In this document: piece by piece, positions 6,876 through 37,997 of the stretch
How positions within the stretch are numbered: position 1 is the first letter of the stretch
How the letters are laid out: each line of letters opens with the position of its first letter
Assembly: GCF_023953935.1 (NCBI RefSeq)
Contig: NZ_JAMLIW010000003.1
Location: 182,001 to 246,000 of the forward strand
Length of the DNA stretch: 64,000 nucleotides
Reading direction: 5' to 3'
Source of the DNA: Thermomonas sp.
Lineage (GTDB): Bacteria; Pseudomonadota; Gammaproteobacteria; Xanthomonadales; Xanthomonadaceae
Notes under the pieces: model-generated
The model's input: only the letters and a program-made list of their open reading frames with translations
Database searches by the model: none
Told to the model about the DNA's origin: nothing
Made by a program: the position numbers and the translations under genes

Positions 6876-7037
6876 CCCCGTTCGTGGTGAGCCTATCGAA
6901 CTCCCCGTTCGTGGTGAGCTTGTCGAACTCCCCGTTCGTGGTGAGCCTATCGAACTCCCCGTTCGTGGTGAGCTTGTCGAACTCCCCGTTCGTGGTGAGC
7001 TTGTCGAACTCCCCGTTCGTGGTGAGCTTGTCGAACC
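6876..7037. repeat. Six tandem 27-bp repeats (GTTCGTGGTGAGC family)
   Basis: Exactly six head-to-tail 27-bp units starting at 6876, 6903, 6930, 6957, 6984 and 7011. Each contains CCCCGTTCGTGGTGAGC then CTATCGAACT (units 1 and 3) or TTGTCGAACT (others). The outer parts GTTCG and CGAAC make each unit an imperfect palindrome. Related single copies occur at 38014-38046 and 45231-45387. There are no spacers, so it is not CRISPR. This explains most of the 308-bp gap between the arsC-like gene and dapE; the remainder holds a possible dapE promoter. Confidence 0.9.
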
Positions 7038-8327: not shown

Positions 8328-10688
8328 TCAGCGCGCCGGTTCCAACCGCAGTGTGTAGCGCGTCTTGCCCGGCAGGAACGGCGTGGGCGTGCCGTTCACC
8401 CAGGCTTCGTGGCCCGCGCCCCAGAACGGTGACAGCGGGTGGTCGCTTTGTCCGCCCGGCATGTGGAAATAGCCGTCGGCCTCGTGTCCGGGTGCCACCA
8501 CCATGCGCTCGGAGGCGCCGAAATTCGGGCCCACCACGCGCGGCATGTCGTCGTCGCCGGCCAGCGGCTGCGACGGCATGCACAGCCAGCGCTTGCCGAG
8601 GACTGGAACGGCCTTGGCCAGCGGATGGCAGATCGCGGCGGTGTTGCGCTCGCCCCAGGTCCGCAGCGGCAGCGGGCCGATCGGGCGCAGCGCGTCGCGC
8701 ACGGCGACCGCCGCATCCTCGAACAGCGTGTCCCAGCTGGCGAAACGGCGTGGCAGCAGGTGGGGCGGCCGCTGCGTCACCAGCGGCCAGACCACGCCTT
8801 CGAGCTGCGGCAGGTCGGGCATCACGAAATCGTTGCCGAGCGCCGCGCGCGCCGGTGCGGTGAGGCCGTCGGCGATGCGCTTGTGCACCTCCAGCCGCCA
8901 GGCGCGGACGATCCGATAGCTGACCGATTCGGGCTCGGCGCGGCCTTCCCAGCGGTGTGCGGCAACTTCCAGGTCGCGCAGCGCGGGGGTGCCGGCGGCG
9001 CGGGCGCGCTCGCGCAGCAACGCGCTCCATTGGGTCAGCAGCACCGCGCGGTCGTCGAGCTGGATGCCCAGCAGATCGCGTTCATCAAACCGCTGCTTGC
9101 GCTGCAGGTCAGCGCGAATCTGGGCGGCGCGGGCACCCAGCACGTAGCCGCCGTCGCCCACGTGGCGCAGCGCGGGCCCGTCCAGCACGCGGGTGTTGGC
9201 CGTCCACATGCGGTCGCGCTGTGGCGAGCGCAGCAGCGGATTGTCGCGGGTGGACAGCAGCCACGGCGGGCAGTCTTCAATCTGCGGATCCTCGACGCTG
9301 GCCGTCAGCGTGCAGCTGGGCGCGCGCTGCGGAATCGGGCCGAACAGGCGCCACGCAATCTGGCCGTCGCGGTCAGCCAGCATCAGATTCTGGGTCGGGA
9401 TGGCGGCGTCCTGCGCGATGGCGAGCGCAGCATCCAGGCTGTCGGCCTGCGCGAACCGGCTCAGGCCGAGGTTGACCGCACCTGGAAGCTGCGCGGCCCA
9501 GCGCAGTGTCAGCACCCGGCCATCGGCTTCGCGATGGACGATCGGTCCCCACGGGGTTTCATCGACTGCCAGCCACACCGTGTCAGCGCCGGCCACGTCG
9601 ATGCGCTCATGATGGCCGACCAGCTTGCTGCAGCCGGCCGGGAATCCATGCTGGCACGGCGTTTCCAACTTCCAGTCCATCGTGTCGATGTAGCTGTTGG
9701 TGAAGCCCCAGGCGATGTGGCCGTTGCTGCCCACCACCACCATCGGCAGGCCGGGCAGGGTGACGCCCTGGACATCGACCTTGCCGCCGGGCGCGGCCGG
9801 GTCGGGCCAGCGCAGGCGGGCGCGAAACCAGATGTTGGGCGCGCGCAGGGTCAGGTGCATGTCGTTGGCGACGATGGCGCGACCATCTGCGGTCAGCGCG
9901 CCGGACACGGCGAAGTTGTTGCTGCCGGGCGCGCCGCGCGGTTCCGACGCGGCGGCGGATGGCGGCCCCGCCGGCAACGTGCGCAGGTTCACCTGCTGCG
10001 GCGTTGGCAGCATGGCATCGCCGCGGGAACCACCTTCCAGCGGCGCGTCCCAACGGCTGCCGGCGTGGGTCAACAGCGCGAACAGCGCCGGCGGCAGATG
10101 CGGGCGCAACCGCCACAGCGCCAGTTCGCTGGCGTTCTTGCCGCCCTGCAGGTCGAAATACATCGCCATGCCGACCAACGGACTGTCCTCGGCGCGCCAG
10201 GGTTGCGGTGATTGCCGCAGCAGCAGGTAGGCCCAGGGCCGGACGCGCAGCGCGGCCAGCCCGGCGTTGACGCCTTCGACGTAGGCATCGAGCTGGGTGC
10301 GCTTGTCGCCGACGATCGCGGGTAGATCGTGTTCGACGCGGGCGCGCAGCCGGTGCAGCCGATGCTGCTTGTCGTTGTCCAGTGCCAGCGGCCCGACCAG
10401 CGCCGCCAGTTCGCCGGCGGCGCTGCGCCGCATCAGATCCATTTCGAAAAATCTTTCCTGCGCGTGCACATAGCCCAGCGCGCGCATGGCGTCAGCCTCG
10501 CTGCCGGCGTCGATGGTGACGGTGCCGTCGGCATCGCGCTGGATCGTCGCCGGTGCCGACAGTCCAGCCAGTGCCTGCTGCCCGTCCAGCTGCGCCAGGC
10601 TGCCGCGCAGCAGCCACCACAGTGCCAGCGCGCACAGCGCCAGCAGGGCCAGCAGGATGAGGATCCAGCGTTTCCGACTTGTGCGCAT
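8328..10688 (-). CDS. Penicillin acylase family (Ntn-hydrolase) protein
   Basis: Membrane-anchored or periplasmic amidohydrolase of the penicillin G acylase/AHL acylase superfamily, 786 residues. It has an N-terminal transmembrane anchor (RKRWILILLALLALCALALW), the alpha-chain region with LGYVHAQERFFEMDLMRR, a spacer, then GAPGSNNFAVSG, where the Ser after Gly is the expected N-terminal nucleophile of the beta chain after autocleavage. The start at 10688 (MRTSRKRW) is chosen because the anchor follows at once; the frame opens further upstream. The substrate is unknown: beta-lactam, acyl-homoserine lactone or another amide are all possible. It converges on dapE and diverges from asnB. Confidence 0.88.
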   Translation of the reverse strand: MRTSRKRWILILLALLALCALALWWLLRGSLAQLDGQQALAGLSAPATIQRDADGTVTIDAGSEADAMRALGYVHAQERFFEMDLMRRSAAGELAALVGPLALDNDKQHRLHRLRARVEHDLPAIVGDKRTQLDAYVEGVNAGLAALRVRPWAYLLLRQSPQPWRAEDSPLVGMAMYFDLQGGKNASELALWRLRPHLPPALFALLTHAGSRWDAPLEGGSRGDAMLPTPQQVNLRTLPAGPPSAAASEPRGAPGSNNFAVSGALTADGRAIVANDMHLTLRAPNIWFRARLRWPDPAAPGGKVDVQGVTLPGLPMVVVGSNGHIAWGFTNSYIDTMDWKLETPCQHGFPAGCSKLVGHHERIDVAGADTVWLAVDETPWGPIVHREADGRVLTLRWAAQLPGAVNLGLSRFAQADSLDAALAIAQDAAIPTQNLMLADRDGQIAWRLFGPIPQRAPSCTLTASVEDPQIEDCPPWLLSTRDNPLLRSPQRDRMWTANTRVLDGPALRHVGDGGYVLGARAAQIRADLQRKQRFDERDLLGIQLDDRAVLLTQWSALLRERARAAGTPALRDLEVAAHRWEGRAEPESVSYRIVRAWRLEVHKRIADGLTAPARAALGNDFVMPDLPQLEGVVWPLVTQRPPHLLPRRFASWDTLFEDAAVAVRDALRPIGPLPLRTWGERNTAAICHPLAKAVPVLGKRWLCMPSQPLAGDDDMPRVVGPNFGASERMVVAPGHEADGYFHMPGGQSDHPLSPFWGAGHEAWVNGTPTPFLPGKTRYTLRLEPAR

Positions 10689-10757
10689 CGTCGCCGCTTG
10701 GGTGTCAGGATGTGACCTTCTTACCACGCGAGCCTGCGCCTGTCTTTCCCGGCCCGC

Positions 10758-10787
10758 TTGCGCGCCCCCGAACGCCCGTGCCATAGT
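10758..10787 (+). promoter_or_regulatory. Candidate promoter of the asnB leader
   Basis: TTGCGC (10758-10763) and CATAGT (10782-10787) are 18 bp apart. Transcription seven bases later would begin at 10794, exactly the ATG of the Asn-rich leader ORF, so the leader would be translated from a leaderless 5' end. No Shine-Dalgarno sequence precedes that ATG. Eye-based, unverified. Confidence 0.4.
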
Positions 10788-10793
10788 CGGCCC

Positions 10794-10880
10794 ATGCGCT
10801 CCATCGCCGCCACCGCCAACAATCGCAACCGCAATAATCGCGGCACACCATGGTGTGCGCGGCCGCGGGTCCGCGCCTAG
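10794..10880 (+). CDS. Putative Asn-rich leader peptide of asnB (attenuator)
   Basis: A 28-codon ORF, ATG 10794 to TAG 10880, starts MRSIAATANNRNRNNRG. Five of codons 9-15 are Asn (AAC AAT . AAC . AAT AAT). It lies 24 bp before an intrinsic terminator and 85 bp before asnB, whose product makes asparagine. This is the layout of ribosome-mediated attenuators such as those of his, leu and trp. By inference, low charged tRNA-Asn would stall the ribosome at 10818-10838 and allow an antiterminator. It might instead be a chance ORF, but Asn codons are rare in this GC-rich genome. Confidence 0.6.
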   Translation: MRSIAATANNRNRNNRGTPWCARPRVRA

Positions 10881-10904
10881 GCAGGCAATACAGCCCCATC
10901 AGAC

Positions 10905-10931
10905 AACCCGCCCGCAAGGCGGGTTTTTTTT
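10905..10931 (+). terminator. Intrinsic terminator in asnB leader (attenuator)
   Basis: A perfect 8-bp stem AACCCGCC/GGCGGGTT (10905-10912 and 10918-10925) with a 5-nt loop is followed by eight T in total (10924-10931). It ends 34 bp before the asnB ATG, so it would block asnB unless prevented from forming. A competing pairing exists: GCGGGT at 10865-10870, within the leader ORF's last codons, is complementary to ACCCGC at 10906-10911 in the left arm. A perfect 16-nt palindrome (10843-10858) lies just after the Asn codons and could act as the 1:2-type pausing or shielding hairpin. Confidence 0.8.
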
Positions 10932-10965
10932 CGCCCGATTTCGCCAAAGCCAAGGGAACCCCGCA

Positions 10966-12639
10966 ATGTGCTCGATCTTCGGAATCTTCGATCTGCAAGC
11001 CAGCGATGACGCCCATGCCTTGCGCCGCGAGGCGTTGGAACGTTCGCAACGCCAGCGCCACCGCGGCCCCGACTGGAGCGGGGTGTATCTGGACGCCGGC
11101 GCGATCCTCGTGCACGAGCGCCTGGCCATCGTCGATCCCGCCGGCGGCTCGCAGCCGCTGCGCTCGCAGGACGGCGGTCTCGCACTGGCGGTGAACGGCG
11201 AGATCTACAACCACCGCGAACTCAAGCGCGAACTCGCGCAGCCCTACGCCTTCCAGACCGAATCCGATTGCGAAATCATCAACGCGCTGTACCGCGAGGA
11301 TGCGCCGGCATCGTTCCTCAATCGCCTCAACGGCATCTTCGCCTTTGCGTTGTGGGACAAGGCGGCCGGGCGCGCGCTCATCGCCCGCGATCCGATCGGC
11401 GTGGTGCCGCTGTACTGGGGCCACGACGCGCAAGGCCGCCTGCGGGTGGCCTCGGAAATGAAGGCGCTGGAAGGCGACTGCAAGGATGTGGCGCAGTTCC
11501 CGCCGGGGCACTGGTATGACAGCGCCACCGGCGAACTGACGCGCTACTACCAACGGCCGTGGCGTGAGTACGCGGCGGTGGAGGGCGTGGAAGTGGCGCT
11601 GACGGAATTGCGCGAGGCCTTCGAAGCCGCCGTGCATCGCCAGCTGATGACCGACGTGCCCTACGGCGTGCTGCTCTCCGGTGGCCTCGACTCGTCACTG
11701 GTCGCGGCGGTCGCGGCACGTTACGCGCGCCATCGCATCGAAGATGGCGACCAGACCGAAGCCTGGTGGCCGCGCCTGCACAGCTTCGCGATTGGTTTGC
11801 ACGGCTCGCCGGATCTGGCGGCCGCACGAATTGCGGCTGACAAGCTCGGCACCGTCCACCACGGCTTCGAATACAGCTTCGAGGAAGGGCTCGACGCGCT
11901 GCCGGAAGTGATCCGGCACATCGAAACCTATGACGTGACGACCATCCGCGCCTCCACCCCGATGTACCTGCTGGCACGCCGGATCAAGGCGATGGGCGTG
12001 AAGATGGTGCTCTCCGGCGAAGGCAGCGACGAAATCTTCGGCGGCTACCTGTATTTCCACAAAGCCCCGAACGCCCGCGAATTCCACGTCGAGCTCATTC
12101 GCAAGCTCGATGCCCTGAACAACTACGACTGCCTGCGCGCCAACAAGTCGATGATGGCCTGGGGCGTGGAACCGCGGGTGCCCTTCCTCGACCGCGCATT
12201 CCTCGACGTGGCGATGCGTATGGACGCCCGCTGCAAGATGGTGGACAAGGCCAGCGGACGGATCGAAAAGGCGGTGCTGCGCGAAGCCTTCGCCGGCTAC
12301 CTGCCCGACGAAATCCTGTGGCGGCAGAAAGAACAATTCAGCGACGGCGTCGGCTACGGCTGGATCGACGGCCTGAAAGCCCACGCCGAAGCCCACGTCA
12401 GCGACCGCGAACTTTCCGCCGCCGACAAACGCTTCCCGATCAACCCGCCGCAGACCAAGGAAGCCTACTTCTACCGCACGCTTTTCGAGCGCTACTACCC
12501 CAGCTCCGCGGCCGCTGAAACCGTGCCCGGCGGCAAGTCGATCGCCTGTTCGTCACCGGCGGCGATTGCATGGGATGCGAGTTTCGCCAATGCCGCCGAT
12601 CCGTCGGGGCGGGCGGTGGCGGGGGTGCATGGGGGATGA
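10966..12639 (+). CDS. asnB: Asparagine synthase (glutamine-hydrolysing)
   Basis: Makes asparagine from aspartate, ATP and glutamine. The 557-residue product (E. coli AsnB 554) begins MCSIFGIFDL with the nucleophilic Cys2 of the class II glutaminase domain, followed by RHRGPDWSG, ERLAIVDP and VNGEIYNH. The synthetase domain has the PP-loop LLSGGLDSSLVA and SGEGSDEIFGGY. The ATG at 10966 is required to place Cys at position 2. The gene is directly downstream of the leader ORF and attenuator described here, suggesting control by asparagine supply. Identification is firm. Confidence 0.97.
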   Translation: MCSIFGIFDLQASDDAHALRREALERSQRQRHRGPDWSGVYLDAGAILVHERLAIVDPAGGSQPLRSQDGGLALAVNGEIYNHRELKRELAQPYAFQTESDCEIINALYREDAPASFLNRLNGIFAFALWDKAAGRALIARDPIGVVPLYWGHDAQGRLRVASEMKALEGDCKDVAQFPPGHWYDSATGELTRYYQRPWREYAAVEGVEVALTELREAFEAAVHRQLMTDVPYGVLLSGGLDSSLVAAVAARYARHRIEDGDQTEAWWPRLHSFAIGLHGSPDLAAARIAADKLGTVHHGFEYSFEEGLDALPEVIRHIETYDVTTIRASTPMYLLARRIKAMGVKMVLSGEGSDEIFGGYLYFHKAPNAREFHVELIRKLDALNNYDCLRANKSMMAWGVEPRVPFLDRAFLDVAMRMDARCKMVDKASGRIEKAVLREAFAGYLPDEILWRQKEQFSDGVGYGWIDGLKAHAEAHVSDRELSAADKRFPINPPQTKEAYFYRTLFERYYPSSAAAETVPGGKSIACSSPAAIAWDASFANAADPSGRAVAGVHGG

Positions 12640-37889: not shown

Positions 37890-37920
37890 GCTGGCTCCGT
37901 GAGGCAGTGGATGCGGTCAC

Positions 37921-37987
37921 GGGCGCCGTTGTTGCGATGAACCCGCCGAGCCTGGCCGTGGTATCCACGGTCGCAGCGCCCCTCGGC
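37921..37987 (-). ncRNA. SAH riboswitch controlling ahcY
   Basis: On the minus strand the leader matches the SAH riboswitch consensus. P1 is GCCGAG (37982-37987) paired with CTCGGC. The conserved GCGCTGCGACC follows, then hairpin CCGTGG/CCACGG, the AGGCTCGGC segment and the 3' part ending AACAACGGCGCCC, whose GCGCCC forms the pseudoknot with GGGCGC after P1. It ends 31 nt before the ahcY ATG. This class activates ahcY when SAH accumulates. No terminator lies between it and the gene, so control of ribosome access is the likely mode. Confidence 0.95.
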
Positions 37988-37997
37988 AGGGGTGGCC

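Follow-up and report, generated by a model that had tools for sequence, protein, structure and literature searches.

Attenuation in proteobacteria has reportedly been surveyed by Vitreschak and others, and to our knowledge control of asparagine genes by RNA in response to Asn-tRNA is known only from the T-boxes of Firmicutes. Like the asnB element proposed here, the T-boxes of asparagine genes in Firmicutes exert control through the charging of tRNA-Asn, but they do so by direct binding of the tRNA and without a leader ORF, which the asnB element has. PMC2494555 reports that T-boxes of asnS are few and that 125 Proteobacteria yielded just 2 T-boxes. Among the systems in which a ribosome reads the leader, his, trp, leu, thr, ilv and phe are the known cases in the main text of PMC1183508. 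The asnB leader resembles these attenuators in that its ORF is rich in codons for the amino acid that the regulated gene produces, and in that a 2:3 antiterminator is opposed to a 3:4 terminator, with a stop codon placed such that a finished ribosome would mask segment 2. In the cysS uORFC-8-2 and ilvB motifs, which came from comparative searches and are described in the main texts of PMC8632094 and PMC11109978, amino acid codons likewise lie in a conserved upstream ORF before a matching gene, but the amino acids are others and so are the phyla or classes. An asparagine attenuator was found neither by term searches of the main texts of PMC2965389, PMC8632094, PMC11109978, PMC6429828, PMC1183508, PMC1262725 and PMC13236596 nor among the papers listed by the literature search, which was confined to open-licence ones; an earlier mention is possible.

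The window, which is the whole stretch of 64,000 nucleotides that was analysed, is a section of a 2.59-Mb genome, and it contains a leader upstream of asnB (Table 1). We consider it very likely that this leader is a ribosome-mediated transcription attenuator that senses the supply of Asn-tRNA and controls asnB. The anatomy given in the original prediction, namely a 28-codon ORF with five Asn codons in a stretch of seven, a 24-nt gap, the terminator and a further gap of 34 nt from the end of the T run to the asnB ATG at 10966, was recovered in full, as was the perfect 16-nt palindrome behind the Asn codons, GCACACCATGGTGTGC at 10843 to 10858. The identity of asnB itself was borne out by a match to NF006949 (866 bits, cut-off 499). 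The prediction had also proposed a competing pairing. Here GCGGGT (10865 to 10870) is indeed complementary to ACCCGC (10906 to 10911), but the extent of 6 bp has to be revised, as the predicted antiterminator has 10 bp with a 2-nt bulge.

Table 1. Elements of the asnB leader region in the window
Feature	Position	Strand	Details
Probable -35 element	10758..10763	+	TTGCGC; 18-nt spacer to the -10 element; by sequence
Probable -10 element	10782..10787	+	CATAGT; 6 nt 5' of the leader ATG; predicted transcription start: A of the ATG or an adjacent nucleotide
Leader ORF	10794..10880	+	28 codons, reads MRSIAATANNRNRNNRGTPWCARPRVRA; no Shine-Dalgarno-like 4-mer ahead
Putative regulatory Asn codons	10818..10838	+	Leader codons 9-15, AAC AAT CGC AAC CGC AAT AAT; 5/7 Asn
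Palindrome (hairpin) 3' of the Asn codons and 5' of segment 2	10843..10858	+	Perfect 16-nt palindrome GCACACCATGGTGTGC
Segment 2, antiterminator 5' arm	10859..10870	+	GCGG, 2-nt bulge, GCGGGT; within the last codons of the ORF; from predicted stalled-state fold, core pairing and compensatory changes
Leader stop codon	10878..10880	+	TAG; 24 nt to the terminator stem
Segment 3, terminator 5' arm and start of loop	10905..10915	+	Common to antiterminator and terminator
Intrinsic terminator, segments 3:4 and T run	10905..10931	+	Stem AACCCGCC 10905-10912, loop 10913-10917, GGCGGGTT 10918-10925
Shine-Dalgarno-like sequence of asnB	10952..10957	+	AAGGGA; by sequence
asnB, asparagine synthase B, proposed regulated gene	10966..12639	+	NF006949, 866 bits against a cut-off of 499

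From the window sequence by itself, it is not proven that the pattern goes beyond chance. The Asn pattern AAYAAYNNNAAYNNNAAYAAY occurs once in the whole genome, in the window, and the reversed control likewise occurs once. A scan of the leader peptide against NCBIfam matched no family, a sigma-70 scan under a strict rule gave no match, and the folding of the 172-nt region was no better than that of its shuffles (z -0.20). Membership of the T-box class or of another Rfam family was rejected for the locus. No Rfam T-box was found at the gathering threshold in the window, and none is among the 11 matches (E up to 10) for positions 10600 to 11100; the best leader-type match, Trp_leader (RF00513, 10849 to 10932, + strand), scored 17.6 bits against a gathering threshold of 41 bits (E 0.66). 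Elsewhere in the window, an SAH riboswitch at 37914 to 37990 (- strand) scores 63.5 bits against a gathering score of 37, and a tandem array of six 27-nt units CCCCGTTCGTGGTGAGCTTGTCGAACT with 95% matches (6876 to 7036) overlaps a long ORF on either strand.

For the comparison, relatives of AsnB were taken from two sources. The first was the best 80 of 591, with loci L002 to L043 (42) considered and 39 of them pooled, and the second consisted of 30 loci from the family of the window together with 60 further upstream stretches, which were picked for genus spread before inspection. The resulting 129 asnB upstream regions (39 + 90) were reduced to 122 by dropping identical ones (39 from the first source and 83 from the second), and this pool includes Thermomonas, Xanthomonas, Stenotrophomonas, Lysobacter, Rhodanobacter, Dyella and kin. 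The upstream region of L130 (genome G051, from the genus of the window) is identical to that of L013 (Thermomonas haemolytica DSM 13605), which places the window in the genus of this species. Five loci without an Asn leader were set aside: L015, L027 and L042, with AsnB 75 to 82% identical and labelled Holophagales, Rhodococcus and Deltaproteobacteria, and L066 (Coralloluteibacterium) and L075 (a Lysobacteraceae MAG), with AsnB 65% identical. When these five are counted, the leader is present in 122/127 such regions. For the first three, which are labelled as other phyla, transfer or misbinned contigs are possible. In L251 (G212) and L252 (G101), the asnB gene behind the leader is broken by a frame change, which may be an assembly error or real.

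A lack of conservation of the ORF or its Asn codons in relatives would have spoken against the original prediction, but both were found conserved: all 122 pooled regions contain a short ORF with 3 to 8 Asn codons in 12, then a terminator and then asnB. The best ORF has 3 Asn codons in 12 in 4 regions, 4 in 11 regions, 5 in 17, 6 in 56, 7 in 27 and 8 in 7, which amounts to at least 4 in 118/122 regions. Dinucleotide shuffles (20 per region, n = 2440) gave at least 3 Asn codons in 143 cases and 4 in 12, and never more, and the reverse strands of the pooled regions gave 3 in 2/122 and 4 in 0/122. Judged from this comparison, conservation excludes a chance origin of the pattern. A low-complexity stretch that happens to resemble an attenuator would agree with an Asn pattern that on its own is expected about once per genome, and with the ordinary folding energy of the region, but it is refuted by the conservation in 122/122 pooled and 8/8 further regions from three families, and we give it a negligible probability.

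Asn accounts for 780 of the 3959 leader codons (423 AAC and 357 AAT). Between nearest-neighbour pairs, 121 changes at Asn codons were counted, comprising 43 swaps between AAC and AAT and 78 losses of Asn. Outside its Asn residues the leader peptide is variable. The codon-position test showed no third-position excess, with 215, 249 and 205 substitutions by position, and synonymous changes were not commoner in the leader frame (86/431) than in frame +1 (98/460). Because the substitutions are without codon-position bias, only the Asn codons look kept; it is the run of Asn codons and not the peptide that appears to be maintained, as expected of a sensor.

A promoter-like pair, consisting of TTG(C) at -37 to -35 and an xAxxxT hexamer that ends 5 to 8 nt upstream of the leader ATG, was found in 102/121 regions, compared to 0.7% of shuffles. 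Over all 122 regions it lies at the chosen ATG in 103 and at another in-frame start in 8 (111/122 together), and the 11/122 that fail the rule include several Rhodanobacter and Dyella types. Shine-Dalgarno-like 4-mers precede 21/121 leader ORFs versus 117/121 asnB genes. Because the start codon lies at the predicted transcription start in 111/122 regions and a Shine-Dalgarno sequence is mostly absent, translation of the leader is probably leaderless, a feature that the original prediction had not noted. We see an even chance that this represents a gammaproteobacterial leaderless-ORF type of attenuator, in which transcription and translation begin at one nucleotide, the ribosome is on the RNA from its first bases and a 1:2 protector is needless; readthrough would be the default, and termination would be imposed only once the Asn run has been translated to completion. 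The same design may underlie the BCAA leaders of the family, and if it does, the attenuator type would be order-wide.

Downstream of the ORF, a terminator was detected in 119/122 regions under a loose rule, which in four loci (L012, L108, L116 and L148) clearly picked a hairpin other than the best one. A stricter rule detected it in 110/122, and shuffles passed that rule in 13/1220. When the search is anchored on the conserved CCYG arm, and the motif thereby taken for granted, it is found in 122/122. Segment 2 starts 7 to 25 nt upstream of the stop codon (median 13, and exactly 13 nt in 81/122 regions), and segment 3 starts 23 to 40 nt downstream of it (median 29). At least 6 of the 7 core pairs between segment 2 and segment 3 can form in 91/122 regions versus 18% of shuffles, and a minority (31/122) shows a weak core with 4 or 5 of 7 pairs. 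The terminator 3' arm GATGCGGG recurs as segment 2 in Xanthomonas and Stenotrophomonas types.

Covariation was scored in alignment A2, which holds 63 of 67 representatives, since four were removed for their unusual spacing. In the 2:3 helix, 83.7% of cells are paired and 6/9 pairs show changes on both sides. These counts lean towards structure because pairing with segment 3 was itself the means of locating segment 2 and because 4/67 rows were left out; slid versions of this helix reach 26 to 46% paired cells. Its covariation score of 0.141 (0.088 when shuffled) was reached by 0/500 column shuffles, and one of the five measures, further pair types, was not above shuffles (208/500). For the 3:4 helix, the paired cells amount to 98.3% and the score to 0.348 (0.190 when shuffled), again reached by 0/500 column shuffles, with two of the five measures not above shuffles (96 and 500 of 500). 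In L029, L118, L120 and L121, segment 2 has changed from G to A together with a change from C to T in segment 3, and segment 4 keeps its G, hence a G-U pair in 3:4. These changes support the 2:3 pairing and are its clearest independent sign. Less favourable is that duplexes of segment 2 and segment 3 from different species are predicted to be nearly as strong as those from the same species (-18.6 versus -21.5 kcal/mol) because the core is constant. Across the 67 representatives, the spacer on the whole makes the 2:3 domain more stable (mean z -1.33, with 23/67 in the best 5%), and no such strengthening was seen for the window spacer (z +0.13). The covarying stems that the original prediction proposed to look for are seen as compensatory changes in both the 2:3 and the 3:4 helix across the order.

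A terminator is normally the end of a transcript, and it is conceivable that the ORF encodes a small protein with a role of its own, or that the region produces a small RNA ended by the terminator, with asnB transcribed from its own promoter. Such a promoter would fit into the gap between terminator and asnB in Rhodanobacter loci such as L019, where it measures up to 222 nt. However, the window leaves just 34 nt, and the promoter-like pair directly precedes asnB itself in 1/121 regions versus 102/121 for the leader. Moreover, the peptide is not conserved except for its Asn residues, and the 2:3 pairing shows compensatory changes. We regard this possibility as very unlikely. A separate observation in the Rhodanobacter loci L019, L020 and L026 is that palindromic units of the GGCCATCCATGGCC type are repeated between the terminator and asnB.

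The attenuator reading was also compared with predicted RNA states. If the ribosome is placed on the last Asn codon at which segment 2 stays free, the predicted probability of 2:3 is over 0.5 in 108/122 leaders, and with a ribosome at the stop codon that of 3:4 is over 0.5 in 122/122. When no ribosome is present, 2:3 is predicted at over 0.5 in 93/122, the window included, and in the complete free RNA at equilibrium 3:4 wins in 97/122. The predicted values for the window are 0.87 for 2:3 in the stalled state and 0.97 without a ribosome, so that 2:3 is no less likely in ribosome-free RNA than with a stall, and 0.996 for 3:4 with the ribosome at the stop and 0.99 in the free complete RNA. Because 2:3 is still predicted without a ribosome and 3:4 wins at equilibrium, the modelled switch must be kinetic, with its outcome set by the sequence in which the steps occur. 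Across the 122 leaders, the predictions do not generally include a 1:2 protector of the trp type, nor do they generally give that role to the palindrome of the window. A 1:2 anti-antiterminator is not obligatory in every ribosome-mediated attenuator. Stems of at least 7 bp in the last 75 to 8 nt of the ORF, which are counterparts of the window palindrome, occur in 52/122 relatives versus 46/610 shuffles, and we suggest that the palindrome at 10843 to 10858 is possibly a pause hairpin for RNA polymerase. The ribosome footprint is given as about 26 nt in the main text of PMC13236596. In these models, the geometry suits a switch operated by a ribosome: a stall on the Asn codons would free segment 2 and a ribosome at the stop codon would cover it.

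The elements that sequence comparison has shown, namely the ORF, its Asn codons, the terminator, the 2:3 and 3:4 pairing, the spacing and the promoter position, can be assembled into the following mechanism. The transcript would begin with the leader ATG or within a nucleotide of it, and the Asn-rich ORF would be entered by a ribosome, probably without a Shine-Dalgarno sequence. When charged tRNA-Asn is plentiful, the ribosome would reach the stop codon and cover segment 2, whereupon 3:4 would pair and transcription would end before asnB. When charged tRNA-Asn is scarce, the ribosome would stall on the Asn codons and leave segment 2 free to pair with segment 3 while segment 4 is yet to be transcribed, which would block the terminator and allow transcription of asnB. 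We infer that the ORF is translated, that ribosomes stall in it, that readthrough occurs and that a shortage of Asn induces asnB. The genome encodes an AsnRS (631 bits, over the cut-off), and therefore free Asn is needed to charge tRNA-Asn and asnB is a sensible target; its product makes the very amino acid that the leader codons name. Other asparagine-synthase-like genes are also present in the genome.

A search of 61 genomes in the order yielded 24 further asnB upstream regions, in which the leader is present in 1/1 from the family of the window, 4/4 from family f2 and 3/3 from family f183, and in 0/16 from five other families. Among 41 set-aside asnB upstream regions, two from AT-rich Colwellia (L059 and L068) reach 4 Asn in 12 codons, and neither then shows the architecture. 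An RNA covariance model matched 256/296 genomes of the family at E 1e-3. Since further attenuators of the family are matched as well, this number has to be read as a ceiling for the Asn leader; judged by eye and uncounted, the misses tend to be genomes with divergent or no AsnB. Class-wide, the RNA model R1 matched 23/369 genomes at E 1e-3. Four of these matches are strong (E 7e-16 or better) and all come from the family of the window, and the remaining ones are at 3.8e-5 or weaker. A wider spread in Gammaproteobacteria was rejected, as none of the 8 loci with weaker matches that were viewed showed a short Asn-rich ORF with a terminator behind it; R1 is insensitive to unrelated Asn leaders, and independent cases elsewhere are possible. 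Second copies of the leader were seen in G282 (contig C83, L185/L191), with two matches before asnB and a stretch with N runs between them, and in G030 (contig C147, L190), on another contig; both may be assembly artefacts.

In 12 genomes chosen for several model matches, the best match lies directly before asnB in 11 (the twelfth, G130, falls outside the comparison), and the weaker matches are BCAA leaders of the LVLVLI type and a Thr-rich leader. The genes behind the BCAA leaders encode ketol-acid reductoisomerase (L193 and L194) and dihydroxy-acid dehydratase (L202), and in the Thr-rich L192 the start of an aspartate kinase lies about 1.1 kb downstream. These leaders act as positive controls for the layout. 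L193, L194, L196, L201, L207 and L202 (BCAA-rich) and L192 (Thr-rich) all have leader ORFs with terminators, and TTGACA is found 36 to 39 nt before each ATG; they may be leaderless too, with 0/7 passing the -10 rule used here.

The anatomy described so far shows only that any stall in the ORF should turn asnB on, and many leaders have Arg codons between their Asn codons. The leader could then be a sensor of translation rate that is not specific for Asn and responds to general slowing, to a ribosome-targeting drug or to undermodified tRNA-Asn, with Asn codons that are merely slow. Against this, Asn is kept in 122/122 leaders with use of both AAC (423) and AAT (357), asnB is the sole gene seen behind an Asn leader, and leaders of the family with other residues precede genes of matching pathways. 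A non-specific sensor is therefore an explanation that we think unlikely, and we return to an attenuator that senses the supply of Asn-tRNA. If this is true, asparagine would be a further amino acid detected through ribosome-mediated attenuation, and there would be a mechanism for the control of asnB in a large order whose members are plant, soil and opportunistic bacteria. The leader would then also be a ready-made reporter of Asn-tRNA. The probable leaderless start makes it testable whether an attenuator works without Shine-Dalgarno initiation in Gammaproteobacteria, and it also bears on how the ribosome and RNA polymerase stay in step.

Within the same family, the BCAA leaders of ilvC and ilvD share the 3' layout of the asnB leader, with GCGGG near the stop codon followed by a terminator arm of the CCCCGC type, but they differ from it in having Leu, Val and Ile codons in place of Asn and in lacking a -10 element that passes the rule. 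Unlike attenuators of the trp and his type, the asnB leader would sense Asn and is probably leaderless, and a 1:2 protector is not generally predicted for it. What is probably new within ribosome-mediated attenuation is thus the amino acid that is sensed, together with the probable leaderless leader and the lack of a generally predicted 1:2 protector.
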